A stretch of 36,561 nt of DNA from Pedobacter sp. (lineage in GTDB: Bacteria; Bacteroidota; Bacteroidia; Sphingobacteriales; Sphingobacteriaceae), in assembly GCA_004210715.1 (NCBI GenBank), contig SEDB01000009.1, positions 1 to 36,561 of the forward strand, given 5' to 3'. The notes under the pieces were generated by a model. The model searched no databases. It had not been told where the DNA came from and worked only from the letters and a program-made list of their open reading frames with translations. Every line of letters begins with the position of its first letter. Position 1 is the first letter of the stretch. This document shows, one piece after another, positions 10,310 through 27,135 of this stretch. The position numbers and the translations under genes are program-made.

Positions 10310-13300
10310 TTAAAAAGTTAAATTAATACCCAATAAAAATGATTTCGGATTTTGTAGCGTTCTGGTTCCGGAATTGAGCGAGAATGATTCAGGATCAATA
10401 TCATCACCAGCAGCACTGGCGTACCACAAATTATTAACCTGTGCCGTAAATTTTGCAGAAGGAATATTTAATCGCTTCAGAAATTGTTTAGGAACATTGT
10501 ATCCCAAAGAAATGCTTCTCAATTTAATGTAATCAGCTTTCACCACATTTACATCTGCATTCTTCCACATCCCTGATATTGACTGTGCCCTTAATCTCAT
10601 AGGTTCTGCATAGTCAACGTAAAGTCTTGGTAATTCTGGAATTATTCCATTTTTGTAACGTTGGGAGATATCTAAATCCGTTATATTATCCGAATCCAAA
10701 GCTGTCATGTCTTTACGCATTACATTTCCACCTGAAAAAACAAATAAAGCATTTAAATCAAAATTTTTATAAGATACACGCTGAGAAAATGAGCCATTGT
10801 ATTTAGGAATAAGCGTTCCCATATTTACCAGTGCTGCGTAATTATTGATTTCTTTACTTGTAGATACAATTGGATTGCCACTTGCGTCAAACTCTAAAGT
10901 TGCTTTTCCATTTTCATCTAAGAAATAGGGATAACCATTCACCATGCCACCATATCGGTAAGCATAAAGGGTATTATAATCCGTTCCTTCGGTATAATAT
11001 GTGGATGGTGATCCAACATAATTACCTGCTGTAGAAAGTGCTCTAGTTACTTTACCTATTTTGCTACGGTTAAAGCCAAGAACAAAAGTTGAACTTAAGG
11101 AAAGATCACCCGACTTAAACCAATCGCCATTAACCGTAAATTCAATCCCCCTGTTTCTCAGAATACCATTATTAATAACCAGAGAGGCAGTACCAACGGT
11201 TGGATCTAATTCAGTTGATACCATTAAATCCGTACTTTTTCTATCGTAAAAATCTATTGTACCGCGTAAACGATTGCCTAATACTGCTATATCCAAGCCT
11301 AAATTATATGTTTCCGTTTTTTCCCATCTAAGCTTTGGGTTTGGTAAACCCAAAATATTCAAATATTGCAATGACGTAAATAAATTATCATTTACTCTTC
11401 TAGCAGTTAAAAACTTGGTTGTTTCAGTATTCTGGTTTCCATTTACGCCATAAGTAGCACGAAGCTTAAGCAAGTTAATCCAACCCAAAGCTTCTATAAA
11501 TTTCTCATTACTGGCATTCCAGCCAAAACCAAGTGACCACAATGGTCTGCTTTTGAATTCTGGATCAGCGCCAAAGAAATCTGCCTGGTCAATCCTAAAA
11601 CTTCCGGTTACATTGTAACGATTTAAATAAGTATAGGATGCATTTGAATAATAGGAAAGATTTCTATGCTTGGTTTCTTGAAATGTCCGACTTGCAAATC
11701 CAAGATATACGTTACGCCCAAAAATATAACTCGGCAACCCTGTTTGACTTAGCGATTGATTATTAACGACTGTTGAAGTCAAGGTAAGCGGATCAAAACC
11801 GTATCTGATATCGTTCATCCCTATTGGAGAAAATGTCTGGCGCATCTCAGTACCAGCAATTGCTGATAGGGAGTGTTTACCTTCATCAAATGATCGATCA
11901 AAACTGAGTTGATTTCTAAAGGTGTAAGAGTTACGCTGTGTCATACCTTGACTAATTCTTCCGCCAGTTGGCAAACCATAAGTGTACGCATTAGTAGCTG
12001 GAGTGTAGCCTACCATTGCGTTGTATGCAGCTCGCATTTTGTAAGAGTTTACATCATAATATTGCTCCGTTTTGGTAGTCCCCATTTCATATTGAACCTG
12101 ACTAGAAAAGTTTAGGCCGTCCATGATTTTTGCATTAATATTTGCAAATGCTCTTAACGCAACCGTATTGGCATTGGTTATACCTTCATTTAAAGATTCT
12201 AAAATATTGAACCGATAAGATTTATATTGAGGTGTATTTTGCAAAGCTGCAGCCACCGCACCGTTAATTTGTGAACCTGCAATACCATCAGCTAAATTTA
12301 CATAATTGGCATAATTTAAACTTCCATCTCCATTTACTATCGAAGCATACCTCGGTGAAATCGTTTGATAGTTATTGTAGTCACCATCGGTTGCTACAGC
12401 GGTAGAATATGAACCGTTAAAACCTACATTTGAAGTTAACCACTTTTTGATATTGTAAGTATTCTTAAAATAAAGAGTAACCTTTTGGTTGTTATTTCCA
12501 ATTACTCTTTCTGCAGAACGATCGTAATTAATAGAAGCAAAAGTGTTCGACTTTGAACTTGCAGAACTCAACGATAAATTATAACGTTGACGAAAAGCAT
12601 TTTGCCAAACGTTATCGCGATATTGTTCGTAATAATCCGCATTTTTAAAATTTCCAATTTGCTGATTAAATTGATCTGTTGTAACCTTTCCTGCATCTCT
12701 ATCGCGAAATAATTGGTAAAGCGGACTATAATATTTGATGCTTCCATTTGCAACAGTTCCATAAGCAGCAAACATCGTTTCGGTATTGGCATACCTAGCT
12801 CTTTCCCTATTATATACATCTGTTTCAAAATCTACTATATCGGGAGTTGATGCATAATGCATACTTCCGAAAGTTGGCTTGGTATCAATAAAAAAATCTG
12901 TATTTAATGATATTTTTAGAGGTGTGTTTCCTTTCTTAGTAGTTAAAACGATTACACCATTTGCCGATCGTGAGCCATAAATAGAAGCTGCAGCTCCATC
13001 TTTTAAAACGGTAACCGATTCAATGTCATACGGATTGATATCTTCTAAAGCTGTTTCTGTTGGTAAACCATCAATAACAACTAGAGGGGCATATGCTCCA
13101 GGAGTTACAGAAAGCGTAGCTTGACCTCGTAACACTGGCTGGTCTGGTTCGCCACCACCGAATGCATTTTTCCTGTAAACCAATCCTGCTACCCTACCTT
13201 CCAGTGCACTTAGAATATCGACATTGATATTTTCATTCAACTTTTTGTTATCAATTATTGTTGCTGCGGCTGTTGAGCGTTCTTTACTTATTGTCTGGAA

Positions 13301-13552
13301 ACCATTCACCACAACATCAGCCAATAATGAAGAATTTGACTTCAATCTTATTGTTACAATTTTCAATGCTGCAGCCTTATCAATCTTTTGTGTTTCTGAC
13401 AAATAGCCCATATAACTAACCTCCAGTGAATTATACACATCGGATAAGTTAATATTAAAGTGCCCATTACCATCTGCCAACGCATACCTGGTGGTTCCTT
13501 TTAATTTTACCGATGCGCCAGGCAGCGGCCCGCCGATACTGTCTGTAACCAT
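10310..13552 (-). CDS. SusC/RagA-family TonB-dependent transporter, 5'-truncated (locus A)
   Basis: A 1080-residue SusC-type barrel begins at MVTDSIGGPLPGASVKLKGT, inside the CarboxypepD_reg domain (residues 1-75). The TonB-box-like DVVVNGF (79-85), the plug with PLVVIDGLP (156-164) and DGAAASIYGSRSANGVIVLTT follow, and the barrel ends in a C-terminal Phe. No signal peptide and no STN domain precede it, unlike locus B SusC, which has about 170 extra N-terminal residues. The ATG lies 9 bases after the fecR stop and in the same frame. The codons between (Asp-His-Gly) still align with the start of the domain, which shows that homology extends past the ATG. As it stands the protein should not reach the outer membrane. 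It is likely a functional pseudogene, or a deletion fused to the fecR end. Confidence 0.85.
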   Translation of the reverse strand: MVTDSIGGPLPGASVKLKGTTRYALADGNGHFNINLSDVYNSLEVSYMGYLSETQKIDKAAALKIVTIRLKSNSSLLADVVVNGFQTISKERSTAAATIIDNKKLNENINVDILSALEGRVAGLVYRKNAFGGGEPDQPVLRGQATLSVTPGAYAPLVVIDGLPTETALEDINPYDIESVTVLKDGAAASIYGSRSANGVIVLTTKKGNTPLKISLNTDFFIDTKPTFGSMHYASTPDIVDFETDVYNRERARYANTETMFAAYGTVANGSIKYYSPLYQLFRDRDAGKVTTDQFNQQIGNFKNADYYEQYRDNVWQNAFRQRYNLSLSSASSKSNTFASINYDRSAERVIGNNNQKVTLYFKNTYNIKKWLTSNVGFNGSYSTAVATDGDYNNYQTISPRYASIVNGDGSLNYANYVNLADGIAGSQINGAVAAALQNTPQYKSYRFNILESLNEGITNANTVALRAFANINAKIMDGLNFSSQVQYEMGTTKTEQYYDVNSYKMRAAYNAMVGYTPATNAYTYGLPTGGRISQGMTQRNSYTFRNQLSFDRSFDEGKHSLSAIAGTEMRQTFSPIGMNDIRYGFDPLTLTSTVVNNQSLSQTGLPSYIFGRNVYLGFASRTFQETKHRNLSYYSNASYTYLNRYNVTGSFRIDQADFFGADPEFKSRPLWSLGFGWNASNEKFIEALGWINLLKLRATYGVNGNQNTETTKFLTARRVNDNLFTSLQYLNILGLPNPKLRWEKTETYNLGLDIAVLGNRLRGTIDFYDRKSTDLMVSTELDPTVGTASLVINNGILRNRGIEFTVNGDWFKSGDLSLSSTFVLGFNRSKIGKVTRALSTAGNYVGSPSTYYTEGTDYNTLYAYRYGGMVNGYPYFLDENGKATLEFDASGNPIVSTSKEINNYAALVNMGTLIPKYNGSFSQRVSYKNFDLNALFVFSGGNVMRKDMTALDSDNITDLDISQRYKNGIIPELPRLYVDYAEPMRLRAQSISGMWKNADVNVVKADYIKLRSISLGYNVPKQFLKRLNIPSAKFTAQVNNLWYASAAGDDIDPESFSLNSGTRTLQNPKSFLLGINLTF

Positions 13553-20520: not shown

Positions 20521-21927
20521 TTAGTAACCCGGATTTTGGATTAGGTTAGGATTGGCATCAATAGCATTATTGGGTAACGGAAGTAATTTGGCTGCTGGCC
20601 TATAGCTGGTTTTCAAGGCACCAAGAACGGCATCAGCCTGTCCAGTTCTTTTTAAATTATACCAGCGATGTGCTTGTTCGCAAAAAAACTCCTTTCTGGT
20701 TTCCAATAAAATTTCATCCAATAATATAGTTTGTGCGGTAGTTGTACTTAATGCAGTTTGCGCCCTTGAACGGATAACATTTAAATCGCTCAAAGCTCCA
20801 CTCAAATTATTGCCAATTCTGGTTCTTGCTTCAGCCCTAATGAGATACTGCTCGGCCAATCTTAAAACTGTAGGCGATTCTACTACTCCAGCGGCAACAG
20901 CCAAGGCATTTGTGGTATATTTATATTTATAAGGCAGCACCTTAACAGCACCAGCAACGATGTAATTCGTCATCCAACGCTGACGACGAAGATCAGTGCT
21001 AGCAAAAAGATTTAAAAATGCCGGACGAATTTCAAATTGTGGGTCGGTGCCGGTAAATGGCAAAAATGTTCCGGCTTCAACTGTATATTGATTTATTACC
21101 GCCAATGGCGATGACATCTGCCAAATACTTTCAGTGTTATTTTTTGTCCATACTCCGGTAGCAATATTTGCAGAAGGAATCATAACATATAAACTGGAAC
21201 CTATTACTTCTGAAGCATTACTCTCCGCAGCAGCATAATTTTCGGTAAATAAGCTTACCCTGGCCAATAACGAAGCTGCCACAAATTTATTAACGCCTAA
21301 TCTGGCATTGGATGACGCAGAATAATCAGCCAAAAGATCGGCTTTAGCTTCGGTTAGATCAGCTGTAATTTGAGCATAAACATTTGCCACAGCTTCTTTG
21401 GGTAACATGGAACTTACACCCACATCAGTAGTTAAAACCAAGGGAACTCCACCAAAGGTATTTACTAAATTGAAATAGCAATAGGCCCTGATTACTTTTG
21501 CTTCAGCCGTGAATTGTTTTTTTACGGCAGCAGATGTACCCTGGTATTTTTGCAAACCTTCTATAATCGAATTAGCTCTGTAGATAATGGCATACCAATC
21601 TGAAAAAATTGAGCTCTGTGCGGAGCTTACCGTAGTGTATGAATTATCGAAAAGTTCCCGATATGTGGTATTGACACCTATATACAACAGGTCATCTGCC
21701 TGAATTGAACTGTAAACCGGAACGAATGTATTTTGGGTAGACGTTGATGCTAAACCTGTATATAGTCCAGATAAAGCATTAGCAGCCAATTTATCAGAAG
21801 AAAACACAACCGATGTTGTAATTTCATTCAAAGGTGGGTCGATTTCCACTGTTTTTTCGCAGGCAGAAAAAACCAGTGTGGCTAATGTGATGCTGCTCAA
21901 CAATATTTTATGAAATGATTTTGTCAT
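20521..21927 (-). CDS. SusD/RagB-family outer-membrane lipoprotein (locus B)
   Basis: The start at 21927 (MTKSFHKILLSSITLATLVF) gives a proper lipoprotein signal with lipobox VFSAC (Cys23). The longer frame up to 21966 overlaps susC and adds only 13 unlikely residues. The 468-residue protein shows SusD hallmarks: an N-terminal EIDPPLNEI region, helices with FTAEAKVIRAYCYFNLVNTFG, and a C-terminal half with LRLAEQYLIRAEARTR, LNVIRSRA, ILLETRKEFFCEQAHRWYNLKR and the end NPNLIQNPGY. It would bind substrate at the surface and close over the SusC channel. It starts 10 bases after the susC stop. It is only distantly similar to the locus A SusD, so the two loci probably prefer different ligands. Confidence 0.94.
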   Translation of the reverse strand: MTKSFHKILLSSITLATLVFSACEKTVEIDPPLNEITTSVVFSSDKLAANALSGLYTGLASTSTQNTFVPVYSSIQADDLLYIGVNTTYRELFDNSYTTVSSAQSSIFSDWYAIIYRANSIIEGLQKYQGTSAAVKKQFTAEAKVIRAYCYFNLVNTFGGVPLVLTTDVGVSSMLPKEAVANVYAQITADLTEAKADLLADYSASSNARLGVNKFVAASLLARVSLFTENYAAAESNASEVIGSSLYVMIPSANIATGVWTKNNTESIWQMSSPLAVINQYTVEAGTFLPFTGTDPQFEIRPAFLNLFASTDLRRQRWMTNYIVAGAVKVLPYKYKYTTNALAVAAGVVESPTVLRLAEQYLIRAEARTRIGNNLSGALSDLNVIRSRAQTALSTTTAQTILLDEILLETRKEFFCEQAHRWYNLKRTGQADAVLGALKTSYRPAAKLLPLPNNAIDANPNLIQNPGY

Positions 21928-21937
21928 GATTGAAATT

Positions 21938-24900
21938 TTAAAAAGTGAATTGTAAACCTGCAACAATGGTACGCAATGGTGGAGTAGCTACGCCCTGCGA
22001 CTCCGGGTCGAAACCTTTATAGCCCGTAATGGTCCATAAGTTTTGCGCCTGGGTAAATACCCTGATATTTTCGGCGTGTACTTTTGATAGCCACTTAGCT
22101 GGTAAGTCGTACGATAAGCTCACGTTTTTAAGTCTAATGAAGGAAGCATCAACTACATTTGCATCAGACCCTGTCCAATTGCTATAGCCAAAATAAGCAG
22201 CTCTACCATTTACCCCGGCAGTTCCGGCAGTTACCAGATAATCTTGAGATCCTAAAGCCAGGTAATCATTAACTACACTAGCTGCCGAGTTATACATATA
22301 TCCAGGAGGATAAAAGGATGCGTTAGCCAAACTTCTTCCCTGCTGTTTAACAAATTGAAATGTAAAATCAAGATTAAAGTTTTTATAAGTAATTGAGTTA
22401 TTTAAGCCACCAAAGAATTTTGGATAAGTGGTACCAATATAATATCGATCTCCCCTCCCAATTTCTGATAATCCGGTAGTAGGAGAAGCTGTACCTCCAG
22501 TGCCATTTAAATCTGCAAATGCTGGTAAATTCGTATTAGGATCAATGCCTAAAAACTGGTAACCGGCAATAAAACTGATGGGTTTACCAACTAAATAAGT
22601 GGTATAATATGATGTTTTTTCAATTCCTGGAAATGACAACAACTTGTTTTCATTTTTGCTGATATTGAAAGATGAGGTCCAGGTGAAGTCTTTGCTCTTA
22701 ATGTTTGTACTAATTAAGCTCACTTCTACACCAGAATTTTGGACATTTGCAGCGAGGTTACTTTGATAACCTGTAAAACCTGCTTGCGGACTTAGTGGAT
22801 AGGTGATCAACTGGTTTCCGCTCCTGTTTCGATAATATGAAGCAACTAATGATAATCTATCCTTAAAGAAACCTAATTCTAAGGCAACTTCCAATTTCTT
22901 GGTTGTTTCCCACTGATAATCATCATTGGCTATACGTGAGGGATTTAAGCTGGAATTTCCATTATAAACTGCCGTTGACGTTGAGTAAGTGGCCAGGTAA
23001 GCGTAATCACCAATATCATCGCTACCAACAGTGCCATAACTTCCGCGAAGTTTACCAAAACTGAACCAGTTAGTTTTGTCTTTTAAAAATTCTTCTTCAG
23101 TGAAAATCCATGCTGCACCTAATGAACCGAAATTACCGAACTTTTTGTTTGGTCCAAACCTTGATGAACCGTCTCTTCTAAAATTTGCGTTTAAAATGTA
23201 TTTGTTTTCTATATTGTAATTTACTCGACCAAAAAGCGAAGCATATTTAAACTCTTTTGATGATGCACTTGTGCTAATAGTAGTGGCTGAAGATAAGTTT
23301 GTTAGAAAATCATCTGAAGGAAAGCCTGTTGCACTAGAGTAATAGGGTTGTTCAGATTTTCTATACTGGTAAGTTCCACCCGCCAGCACATTCAACAATC
23401 CTCTCCACACTTTACGGTTGTAAGTAATTTGTGGTTCTACAATATAGGTATTGGTGTAAGTGTATGCAAAAGCAGCAGTACCCGATGTAGGTACAGAAAA
23501 TGCAGTATTTAATGAACTTAATGGCCTTATGGTTGTTTGCTTCATATCAGTTTTGCTATAACCAAATGAAGATTTGATATCCAAACCATCTAAAATATTG
23601 TATTTCAGATTTAAGTTTGATGATAAATTACTGCTTCTATTATCATTGGTTTGATATAAAAAGCCAAGTGGATTATTTAAACCCGAAACCCAGTATAAAC
23701 TTCCATCAGCTTTATAAAGCGGATAATTTGGGGGTAAATTGTAAGCATAATTGGCTAAATCCGTTGTAGAAATATCATTTTTATCTGTAGAATAAATAGC
23801 GGAAAAACCCATATTAAATTTTTGATCCAGGGAGCTATGATTAAGATTTACATTAAAACCACCGCGTTGATAGGATTGATCGCCAGGAAACACATTTCCT
23901 TCCTTATGGTAAGTACCGCTGATGTAAAAATTAGTACGATTATCTCCTCCAGAAACATTCGCACTGATGTCATTCGTTCTCGCCGTTCCGCCCAAAATTT
24001 CTCTTAACCAATCTGTATTAGCAGTTTGATCCCAAACTAATAAATCCGGAGCAGTAGTTGTTGATGGCGCAGCAGGATTTGTGGTTACATTTGCAAAGCC
24101 TTTTTTACGTAACGCCAGGTATTGATCGATACCAAGCATTTCAACAAAGTGAGGAACTACCGAAGCACCCGACGAGGCATTCACACCGAATTTTGTTTTA
24201 CCTGATTTACCCCTTTTTGTAGTGATTAAAACCACTCCATTTGCAGCTCTTGAACCATAAATTGCTGTAGCATCTGCATCTTTCAATACTTCTATACTCT
24301 CAATATCAGCAGGATTAATAATATTTAATGGACTAGTTTGGCCTTCTGCTGATGGCAATCCCGTAATTCCTGATGGCGAAGCGGCCAGGTTAATTTGTTC
24401 TGACAAAAAAGGTACACCATCAACTATGTAAAGTGGTCTATTGGCTTTACCAATTGAATTTGCTCCACGAATTTGAACATTCATCCCCGCTCCTGGCAAA
24501 CCATTGGTTTGAACCACAGACACACCAGGCATTCTGGCCTGAAGTGTTTGCAAAATATTGGTTACGGGTTGCTTTTCTATTTCTTTGGCACTAATTCCAT
24601 TTTGTGAACCAGTAGTGGTTCTGCGAGTTGTGGTGCCATAACCAATAATCACTACTTCATCTAATTTAGCAGGATCCAGCTTCATCTTCACAGTCAAATT
24701 AGCAGCCGTATTTACAGTAATATTCTGTGTACTGTAGCCAATATAAATAAATTCGATAATGGTATTGGGGCCTGCTACGCCAATGGCAAAATTACCTTTC
24801 GCATTGGTTGAAACAGACTGGTTACCATTTTTAACCCGAATAGATACGCCAACCAGGGGTTCATCTTTTTCATCAACAACTTTCCCATTTACCACAAAGC

Positions 24901-25402
24901 CATCGCGTTTTCCAGATAAATTATCAGTTAAAATTTCAGGTTGCTTAAATGGTTCGGCTTCTTTTTCACTTTGAGTTTTTACAACTACAAACTGATCATT
25001 GATGACTTCATAAGTTAGTTTGTTCGCATTTAAAATCTGATCTAGAAGATCTTTTAGTTTGATATTATTGTAACTCCCGCTGATAGCACCAACATTTTTT
25101 TTGATTTGATTATTGTAAACCAATCTGAATTTGGCTCTTTGCGCAATAGTTTTTAAAACATTTTCAAGTTTTTGGTCAGAAAACTCAATGGATAATCTTT
25201 TTTCAGTAAGCTGTGCATTCACTGATGATGACCAGCTAAACTGAACAGCAATGACGATACCCAAAATTTGCAGTAAAGAAAATTTCATAATCCTAGTTAA
25301 TATGGGGAGCGCTATCGCTTTAAAGAGATGCTTATTTACCTCTTGATTAACCAGCCTAAAGTTTAGGGCACAGGCTGGCCTTTTGAACAATTTTTTGTAC
25401 AT
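21938..25402 (-). CDS. SusC/RagA-family TonB-dependent transporter with STN domain (locus B)
   Basis: This 1154-residue protein is complete. The start at 25402 gives the long basic N-terminus usual for this group; an alternative is Met39 (25288), which begins the actual signal peptide (KFSLLQILGIVIAVQFSW, cleavage after VNA). Domains in order are STN (about 68-141, RLSIEFSDQKLENVLKTI), CarboxypepD_reg (170-245), the TonB-box-like DEVVIIGYG, the plug with PLYIVDGVPF and ATAIYGSRAANGVVLITTKRG, and a barrel ending in TF. The STN domain marks it as a signal-transducing transporter that talks to a FecR anti-sigma, and one lies directly upstream. The gap to fecR (108 bases) contains a hairpin and a possible antisense transcript. 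It would import the products of the neighbouring protease. Confidence 0.94.
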   Translation of the reverse strand: MYKKLFKRPACALNFRLVNQEVNKHLFKAIALPILTRIMKFSLLQILGIVIAVQFSWSSSVNAQLTEKRLSIEFSDQKLENVLKTIAQRAKFRLVYNNQIKKNVGAISGSYNNIKLKDLLDQILNANKLTYEVINDQFVVVKTQSEKEAEPFKQPEILTDNLSGKRDGFVVNGKVVDEKDEPLVGVSIRVKNGNQSVSTNAKGNFAIGVAGPNTIIEFIYIGYSTQNITVNTAANLTVKMKLDPAKLDEVVIIGYGTTTRRTTTGSQNGISAKEIEKQPVTNILQTLQARMPGVSVVQTNGLPGAGMNVQIRGANSIGKANRPLYIVDGVPFLSEQINLAASPSGITGLPSAEGQTSPLNIINPADIESIEVLKDADATAIYGSRAANGVVLITTKRGKSGKTKFGVNASSGASVVPHFVEMLGIDQYLALRKKGFANVTTNPAAPSTTTAPDLLVWDQTANTDWLREILGGTARTNDISANVSGGDNRTNFYISGTYHKEGNVFPGDQSYQRGGFNVNLNHSSLDQKFNMGFSAIYSTDKNDISTTDLANYAYNLPPNYPLYKADGSLYWVSGLNNPLGFLYQTNDNRSSNLSSNLNLKYNILDGLDIKSSFGYSKTDMKQTTIRPLSSLNTAFSVPTSGTAAFAYTYTNTYIVEPQITYNRKVWRGLLNVLAGGTYQYRKSEQPYYSSATGFPSDDFLTNLSSATTISTSASSKEFKYASLFGRVNYNIENKYILNANFRRDGSSRFGPNKKFGNFGSLGAAWIFTEEEFLKDKTNWFSFGKLRGSYGTVGSDDIGDYAYLATYSTSTAVYNGNSSLNPSRIANDDYQWETTKKLEVALELGFFKDRLSLVASYYRNRSGNQLITYPLSPQAGFTGYQSNLAANVQNSGVEVSLISTNIKSKDFTWTSSFNISKNENKLLSFPGIEKTSYYTTYLVGKPISFIAGYQFLGIDPNTNLPAFADLNGTGGTASPTTGLSEIGRGDRYYIGTTYPKFFGGLNNSITYKNFNLDFTFQFVKQQGRSLANASFYPPGYMYNSAASVVNDYLALGSQDYLVTAGTAGVNGRAAYFGYSNWTGSDANVVDASFIRLKNVSLSYDLPAKWLSKVHAENIRVFTQAQNLWTITGYKGFDPESQGVATPPLRTIVAGLQFTF

Positions 25403-25482
25403 TTGTTTGGTTTTAGTAGTAAAGTATTAGGCTTCTAAATCTTCACAGCAGGGTGTTGCAGCACGCCTGCTGTTGCTTTTTT
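25398..25482 (+). ncRNA. Candidate antisense small RNA over the susC leader of locus B
   Basis: On the plus strand, opposite to fecR-susC, TACATTTG (25398-25405) matches the Bacteroidota -7 box. About 40 bases later an 8-bp perfect stem (ACAGCAGG at 25445-25452, CCTGCTGT at 25466-25473, extended by 3 pairs past a bulged base) is followed by TGC and six T residues, the layout of a rho-independent terminator. No plus-strand gene leads into it. A transcript of about 70 bases (roughly 25412-25482) would be fully antisense to the susC leader. Cis-antisense RNAs at this place are known from Bacteroides utilisation loci with sigma/anti-sigma control. No -33 TTTG is seen, so the promoter is uncertain. 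Confidence 0.4.
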
Positions 25483-25510: not shown

Positions 25511-26512
25511 TTAGTTACATCCTCCTCCAGTTAAGTCAATTTGGTTTTTATTAATGGTATATTGAGAATTAGTAACAGCCGAAATTACTTTTAGGGTATT
25601 GTCTAACGACTGATCAGTTACATCAGCAGATAGATAGCAATTCGAATAGTTATTTTTCCCGGTGTTAATTTTCACATTAAATTTTTTCTCTACACGATCT
25701 TTTACTTCGCTGAAGGCAATGTTTTCAAAGTTCATGTCGTATTCTGTACCATTTAAAATCAAAACTTTTTCTGAAATCGGCGCCGGAGTTAAACGTTGTG
25801 AATTTTGGTTGCCATTTACTTCGAATTCATTTCCATGCGTAATAATAATTGGCTTTTCCAGCTCGTCTTTTGATTTGTTGGATGATGATATGGCGACTTT
25901 GCCGGTAAGTACTGTTAATTTGAATATTTTGGCTTCGATACTTTCTTTTATATTGAAACTGGTACCTAAAACCCGGGCAAGATAATTTCCGGTTCTAATT
26001 ACAAAAGGGTGTGTTTTATCTTTAGCTACCTCGAACAATGCTTCGCCATGAAGTATCACGTTGCGGGTACTGTCGTTAAATTTACTAGGATATTCCAACC
26101 TGCTGTTTCCTTTGAGCCACACAATCGAATGATCAGGTAAGTGTATTTTGGTGATCATGCCATTTGAATATGCCCGGATATTTTTAACAACCTGCTCTTG
26201 TTTTGCCGTTTTTAACCAAAGAAAAATTCCAATGCTACATACCAATAAAATAGATGCCGCAATGGCTAGATAGTTTCTAATGAATTTTGGCTGATTTACT
26301 GGAACAAATTCTATCTTAGATATCAACGACTTGTATAATCTTTCACTCAGTTGTTCTTTAGTTTCATTTTTCAACTCCCAAATTGGAATTTCAGTGGGAT
26401 TTAATGCATACCAGGCATCCAATTTTTCTTTTTCTTCAGAGCTTATCGTTCCGCTTAGCATCTTTTTTGCTAAAAAATAGATTTCGGAAGGTAATTTGTC
26501 GGCGTTTTTCAT
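25511..26512 (-). CDS. FecR-family anti-sigma factor (locus B)
   Basis: This 333-residue protein has a cytoplasmic N-terminus with the FecR-type sequence YFLAKKMLSGTISSEEKEKLDAW (1-35), a membrane helix (about 80-101, YLAIAASILLVCSIGIFLWL), a periplasmic FecR domain (about 110-215, KIHLPDHSIVWLKGNSRLEYP and VILHGEALFEVAKDKTHPF) and a DUF4974 end (about 260-328, FENIAFSEVKDRVEKKFNVK). It ends in GGGCN. It would restrain the sigma factor encoded 50 bases upstream until the STN domain of the SusC encoded downstream signals occupancy. It is only moderately similar to the locus A FecR, so cross-talk between the two systems is possible but not implied. Confidence 0.94.
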   Translation of the reverse strand: MKNADKLPSEIYFLAKKMLSGTISSEEKEKLDAWYALNPTEIPIWELKNETKEQLSERLYKSLISKIEFVPVNQPKFIRNYLAIAASILLVCSIGIFLWLKTAKQEQVVKNIRAYSNGMITKIHLPDHSIVWLKGNSRLEYPSKFNDSTRNVILHGEALFEVAKDKTHPFVIRTGNYLARVLGTSFNIKESIEAKIFKLTVLTGKVAISSSNKSKDELEKPIIITHGNEFEVNGNQNSQRLTPAPISEKVLILNGTEYDMNFENIAFSEVKDRVEKKFNVKINTGKNNYSNCYLSADVTDQSLDNTLKVISAVTNSQYTINKNQIDLTGGGCN

Positions 26513-26562: not shown

Positions 26563-27135
26563 TTAAAAAAAATACAAAAAAGATGTAAATCCGTTTAAAT
26601 TACCTTTAATATGCTTAACTGCTTTGGTAATATGGCCCTCAACAGTCTTTTCACTGATATCAAGCGCCGATGATATTTCTTTTGTAGAAAGACCTTGCTC
26701 CCGGCTGAGGCGAAAAACCATTTGACATTTCTCAGGGAGTTGTGCGACTAGAGTTTCAATCTGAATAATAATTTCGCTGAATGCTAAATGTTGCTCCGTG
26801 CTGTGGTCAATGAGCTGATTTTCTACTTCTTCTCCAATTTCTACATTCTCATGTTTCGATCTGGTAGCGATTTTGGCATAAATAGAATATTTCAGTGCTG
26901 CTGAGATATAGGTTCTGAAAGAATAATTTAAAACGGTTTTATGCCGGTTAGACCAGATACTAAGAAAAACTTCCTGAACAACCTCTTCTGATTCTTCCTG
27001 AACTTTTAGTTTGGTATAGGCAACCTGAAGCAATTTATCCCAATAGCGATTATAAAGAATTTTAAATGCACCTTGATTATCTTTCCTCAATTGCTCAAAT
27101 AGAATTTCATCAGAATGCTCTTCAGGAACGTGCAT
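26563..27135 (-). CDS. ECF-subfamily RNA polymerase sigma factor, FecI-like (locus B)
   Basis: This 190-residue protein has sigma70 region 2 (about 20-85, AFKILYNRYWDKLLQVAY, EESEEVVQEVFLSIWSNR and FRTYISAALKYSIYAKI) and region 4 (about 125-175, LPEKCQMVFRLSREQGLSTK and the helix-turn-helix EISSALDISEKTVEGHITKA). The C-terminal tail is short and hydrophobic. It is the first gene of locus B, with fecR 50 bases downstream, and would direct polymerase to the susC promoter of this locus. The start MHVPEEHSDE is the only good ATG, and a plausible promoter lies just upstream. I am sure of the family; the target promoters are inferred. Confidence 0.94.
   Translation of the reverse strand: MHVPEEHSDEILFEQLRKDNQGAFKILYNRYWDKLLQVAYTKLKVQEESEEVVQEVFLSIWSNRHKTVLNYSFRTYISAALKYSIYAKIATRSKHENVEIGEEVENQLIDHSTEQHLAFSEIIIQIETLVAQLPEKCQMVFRLSREQGLSTKEISSALDISEKTVEGHITKAVKHIKGNLNGFTSFLYFF

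Follow-up and report, generated by a model that had tools for sequence, protein, structure and literature searches.

The window analysed here, a 36,561 nt stretch of Pedobacter DNA, corresponds to contig C438 in an incomplete genome assembly (756 contigs, 4.19 Mb, 78% complete). Locus B of the window consists of four genes on the minus strand: an ECF sigma factor gene (26563..27135; Pfam), a fecR-type anti-sigma factor gene (25511..26512; Pfam match), a susC gene encoding a TonB-dependent receptor (21938..25402; Pfam match), which is the presumed target of the element described below, and susD (20521..21966; ORF list and Pfam). The nearest named relatives of the locus B susC were found in Pedobacter sp. 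R20-19 (93% identity) and P. rhizosphaerae (84%). We also noted that many FecR proteins of these loci carry a short C-terminal tail with a cysteine, often placed after glycines (GGGCN in the window, 25511-25530); besides the window, the loci concerned are L009-L011, L013-L018, L020, L047 and L052-L058.

Reading of the sequence between fecR and susC confirmed that a promoter-like box, a hairpin and a T-run are all present on the plus strand. The predicted antisense -7 box, TACATTTG, is of the TAnnTTTG type and occupies 25398..25405, where it overlaps the susC start codon (ATG, 25400..25402, minus strand) and has these bases in common with it. Because this box is reverse-complementary to the sequence around the ATG, a coding or translational cause was possible and was tested with controls. 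The predicted terminator hairpin at 25445..25473 was located by folding and by hairpins at the same place in relatives; its stem arms lie at 25445-25452 and 25466-25473, with additional inner pairs, and a 3 nt spacer separates the stem from a run of six T (25477..25482). The transcription start was set 5 nt beyond the box, following the position of the F. psychrophilum box at -12 to -5 as given in PMC9723704, and the end was placed at the T-run. The resulting predicted antisense RNA of ~73 nt (25410..25482, plus strand) spans susC leader positions -8 to -80 with full complementarity. The initial annotation had described a plus-strand hairpin with a T-run between fecR and susC where no plus-strand gene exists to terminate, and the coordinates agree with this, as does the ORF list, which contains no plus-strand frame of at least 90 aa from 17123 to the hairpin. 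A perfect box some 40 bases before the hairpin had also been described; the distance from box end to hairpin is 39 nt, to which we add the overlap with the susC start codon.

Within the window alone, box and hairpin were not striking and hardly went beyond chance. The hairpin fold had a z-score of -2.9, with 2 of 200 shuffles equally good, while terminator-like sites numbered 18 in 19.6 kb against 16.1 in shuffles and TAnnTTTG was observed 34 times against 54 expected. The two strands of 25440-25482 folded nearly equally well (-18.3 kcal/mol antisense, -17.4 kcal/mol sense), and the window's own stem contains no wobble pair. The sense leader also folded better than its shuffles (z -3.29), and a second folding comparison gave z -3.56 for the sense leader versus z -2.11 for the antisense RNA. 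The site owes its significance to conservation and not to the statistics of the window.

Orthologous loci from Pedobacter and Mucilaginibacter, and from a single genome that is labelled Flavobacteriaceae, keep the hairpin, a sense-strand A-rich stretch beside it and the box, with the A-rich stretch interrupted at a single locus (L010). All eight loci of the window's group (the window, L009, L010, L011, L012, L018, L020 and L045) keep CAAATGTA at the susC start. Flavobacterium loci L013-L017 have a different hairpin at the same place and in the same layout. By eye, the susC leaders of L014-L017 seem to have two hairpins (at about 2760-2960), with CTCCTAC in both loops.

Frequencies were estimated from 100 loci of the genus (L033-L132) chosen without regard to hairpins, comprising the 10 FecR loci of the window's own genome and 90 of the best FecR matches listed, over 60 genus genomes and with the window among them. 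L043-L132 are ordered by similarity to the window FecR, with a partial match (G028 C4) skipped. We left out L036 (contig end), L037 (locus A, which has no unit) and L041 (the same place as L043, the window), which gave 97 loci with 88 distinct hairpin sequences; L036 has the hairpin with an A-run even though the locus ends at a contig end, and for L034, L035 and L108 the script placed the susC start far downstream. The fecR-susC gaps were searched with a strand-symmetric hairpin finder in which G.T and A.C carry equal cost, a score of at least 20 defining a strong hairpin. Strong hairpins were found in 82 of the 88 distinct gaps, compared with 224 of 1760 shuffles and with 27 of 70 ordinary co-directional gaps sampled from twenty genus stretches of 20 kb each, placed arbitrarily (Fisher P = 5.5e-14, a value that is too small because the sampled loci are related and paralogous). 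The remaining 6 of the 88 gaps had no hairpin at the score threshold. We had looked specifically for loss of the hairpin where susC is conserved, and the counts instead favour the expectation that the two are kept together. Among the 10 FecR loci of the window's own genome, L035, L037, L038 and L039 are without the unit and L042 is doubtful. At L035 (contig C692) a second susC of this genome also looks interrupted near its N-terminus, just past a signal-like region, as judged by eye.

The genus hairpins were strongly polarised between strands. Taking at least 5 T among the 8 nucleotides after the hairpin as a T-run, an antisense T-run followed 58 of 82 hairpins and a sense T-run none, compared with 5 and 8, respectively, of the 27 control hairpins in co-directional gaps; two of those 5 control hairpins themselves stand between FecR-like and susC-like genes, which were recognised in the control stretches by reading the proteins. 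Stem irregularities were of the A.C type (G.U in the antisense strand) 102 times and of the G.T type (G.U in the sense strand) 13 times, against A.C:G.T ratios of 248:138 in shuffles and 14:17 in ordinary co-directional gaps. Counted by locus, the wobbles leaned towards the antisense strand in 62 cases, towards the sense strand in 5 and towards neither in 15. Wobble polarity of this kind offers a purely sequence-based way of deciding which of the two strands gives the functional RNA when a hairpin is conserved. Mean hairpin energy in the genus was -17.1 kcal/mol for the antisense and -13.1 kcal/mol for the sense strand, and by a margin of more than 0.5 kcal/mol the antisense strand was the more stable in 75 of 82 hairpins and the sense strand in 4 (9 versus 15 of 27 among controls). 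The polarity is visible in orthologues of the window's own hairpin, with antisense and sense energies of -14.8 and -9.3 kcal/mol at L011 and of -15.4 and -10.2 kcal/mol at L018.

Alignment of 13 antisense terminators belonging to one susC type (from 16, with L067, L071 and L080 left out as identical or near-identical) showed 97.0% of pair cells paired and four pairs changed on both sides. The covariation score was 0.267 against 0.144 in shuffles, none of 500 shuffles being as high, and one covarying pair in orthologous terminators appears as G-U, U-G, A-U and C-G. Counting pair types gave no excess over shuffles for these 13 terminators (300 of 500 as high). Of the six-base antisense loops of the genus (n=43), 19 read UUnnnG and, by a manual count, 12 read CGnCAA, and an identical 30-base hairpin was seen between FecR-like and susC-like genes of two genomes (L233, 14136-14165; L239, 16187-16216). 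The exact hairpin loop of some relatives was tried as a genus marker and matched in only 4 of 59 genomes. A scan of the window with Rfam returned nothing at the gathering threshold, and the matches seen at the site were weak and of chance level. Ten relatives yielded at the gathering threshold only a cobalamin riboswitch and tmRNA and not Flavo-1, and on these results a known Rfam family was rejected; the riboswitch and tmRNA lie near related loci (L009, 62-260, minus strand; L015, 12-408).

Within 150 nt past the hairpin, 35 of 82 loci had an antisense TAnnTTTG, and the motif appeared a single time on the sense strand. The overlap with the start codon was scored as TAnnTTTG overlapping an in-frame ATG in the first 40 codons, using 93 unique fecR-linked susC starts (in-frame ATGs taken from the sequence) and 283 gene starts of the control stretches; the latter replaced an earlier start-codon control (9/215) that still contained susC genes. 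Perfect antisense boxes were found at 32 of the 93 susC starts and at 1 of the 283 control starts, and that single control start belongs to a sigma-FecR-susC locus. The other 61 of the 93 susC starts have no perfect box, and with up to one mismatch allowed the counts rose to 68 of 93 versus 27 of 283. No -33 element stood out in 41 aligned sequences, in line with the initial annotation, which had seen no clear one. At 30 loci with both box and hairpin the predicted RNA lengths were 70-162 nt, 28 of them falling between 70 and 134 nt. The antisense reading originally put forward for the site is supported by these data, with T-runs, wobbles and energy pointing to the plus strand and the box enriched at susC starts.

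Locus A of the same window had been described as carrying a deletion of this interval. Its fecR-susC gap is indeed only 9 nt, and its susC is without ~125 codons present in relatives, whose open frames extend over 1205-1220 aa (L253-L257). However, the description is misleading in that L254-L257, all with fecR directly upstream and gaps of 43-95 nt, contain neither a hairpin of score 20 nor a box; L253 has no fecR upstream of susC. The locus A copy lost ~125 N-terminal residues, but the antisense unit was probably never there, because four relatives with fecR beside susC are also without it. The locus A SusC (10310-13552, minus strand) starts within a carboxypeptidase-like domain 9 nt after fecR, and no hydrophobic N-terminus was seen by eye; this may reflect either a broken copy or a join made in assembly.

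To gauge breadth, we examined 79 loci in further genomes across the phylum, belonging mostly to other genera and families, as a set that has no shuffles or control gaps of its own. No susC frame was obtained for L161, L167, L183, L203, L209, L219 and L221, and three more loci (L156, L157 and L160) were excluded by hand. Strong hairpins were found at 41 of the 79 loci, of which 25 had an antisense T-run and 2 a sense T-run, and their stems contained 40 A.C against 14 G.T. By family, an antisense T-run followed 9 of 12 strong hairpins in f1, 5 of 7 in f25, 8 of 14 in f26, the only one in f22, 2 of 4 in f41, neither of 2 in f15 and not the single one in f29. No strong hairpin came from the 6 loci of families f27, f31, f32 and f34, and the 4 of f41 were all that its 17 loci yielded. 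A FecR_C search of 23 genomes of other families, aimed at reaching Bacteroides, found matches in 4, the gaps of which are outside the counted sets.

The comparisons show that a putative terminator polarised towards one strand recurs in these gaps and that the predicted box overlaps the susC start codon, both enriched over controls; from this we infer transcription, the RNA ends, pairing and repression. The hairpin, the T-run, the wobbles and the enrichment of the box suggest that an antisense transcript is under selection, one beginning immediately upstream of the susC ATG and terminating short of fecR. The plus strand probably carries a small antisense gene over the susC leader, the predicted RNA of which would repress susC. 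Transcription would begin at about 25410, driven by a promoter of the TAnnTTTG type with its -7 box on bases shared with the susC start codon; the polymerase would copy the leader backwards and stop at the hairpin and T-run before fecR. The ~73-nt RNA would then pair with leader positions -8 to -80, masking the bases directly ahead of the start codon and exposing the leader to double-strand cleavage. Expression of susCD would thereby stay low as long as the sigma/anti-sigma pair does not drive sense transcription strongly.

Several other explanations were weighed against this one. The box might be nothing but the translation-initiation context of susC, resembling a promoter when read backwards, an explanation favoured by the A-rich side upstream of the ATG, which fits Bacteroidota start regions, and consistent with the lack of a visible -33 element. 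We consider it doubtful, since only 1 of 283 other gene starts of the genus has a perfect box, and this single start also belongs to a sigma-FecR-susC locus. It is also unlikely, and slightly more so, that the terminator acts only as a one-way insulator, stopping stray antisense transcription from susCD before it reaches fecR and the sigma gene with no dedicated RNA being made. In favour of an insulator, the hairpin occurs more widely than the perfect box does (82 of 88 gaps versus 32 of 93 starts), but such a role leaves unexplained both the antisense box at susC starts (68 of 93 within one mismatch versus 27 of 283) and a box-hairpin spacing that gives RNAs of 70-162 nt.

A sense-strand element, in which the hairpin would act within the susC mRNA by stabilising it, by marking a processing site or by controlling translation, appears very improbable to us. 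In its favour are the conservation of a leader hairpin and a sense leader that folds better than its shuffles (z -3.29), but wobbles (102:13), T-runs (58:0) and energy (75:4) all favour the antisense strand, and the window has no Rfam match at the gathering threshold. A sense-strand leader RNA was our own interim hypothesis, and it was dropped because wobble and T-run polarity overturned it. Chance terminator-like and promoter-like matches in AT-rich DNA would fit window counts near or below the shuffle expectation, but recurrence and strand polarity across many loci contradict them; chance origin was rejected on the comparative result and is given almost no weight.

The presence of similar antisense signals before most sampled susC genes of relatives suggests that these genes share an off-switch of a type for which gut Bacteroides have so far been the main example. 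We regard as evenly poised the broader proposition that anti-sigma-linked susC genes of several Bacteroidota families come with an antisense gene built in, whose -7 box shares the start-codon bases and whose terminator is made one-way by wobbles that are mismatched in the sense leader, the many units per genome forming a general, unmapped layer of nutrient-uptake control outside gut Bacteroides. If true, antisense control of SusC transporters would be a property of much of the Bacteroidota, and the many anti-sigma-linked susC loci could be checked directly in strand-specific RNA data, whether existing or new.

The known RNAs closest to the predicted unit belong to the DonS family, encoded between anti-sigma and susC genes. 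The family is attributed to Cao et al. 2016. In Bacteroides, DonS RNAs are described as PUL-associated cis-antisense RNAs of 78-128 nt that lower susC expression (PMC7366714; see also PMC9723704). Ten further RNAs of DonS-like orientation are listed for B. theta, where 52% of cis-antisense RNAs carry a canonical promoter (PMC7366714), and a later atlas describes 32 PUL-associated antisense RNAs whose correlation to their PUL is both inverse and positive (PMC10994844). By the position of its signals, the Pedobacter unit is likewise oriented antisense to a susC homologue, on its 5′ side, and the DonS size range compares with ~73 nt predicted in the window and 70-162 nt over 30 loci. Going by the DonS description, the unit resembles these RNAs in orientation and approximate size and in its layout would work like one, with the difference that it lies in Pedobacter-like and other Bacteroidota and is predicted from sequence signals. 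The FopS sRNAs, described together with RbpB in B. thetaiotaomicron (PMC11697453), are similar in being short (~65-70 nt), in having a terminator and in acting near susC start codons, as predicted in the window; however, they are trans-acting paralogues with a shared seed, whereas the window RNA would be encoded opposite its presumed target. In F. psychrophilum, which like Pedobacter is outside Bacteroides and has the same TAnnTTTG promoter type, 287 transcribed regions antisense to CDSs are reported, and the passages describing them make no link to fecR-susC leaders (PMC9723704). Among the other papers listed, most of them judged by title, none pointed to an antisense RNA at fecR-susC outside Bacteroides.
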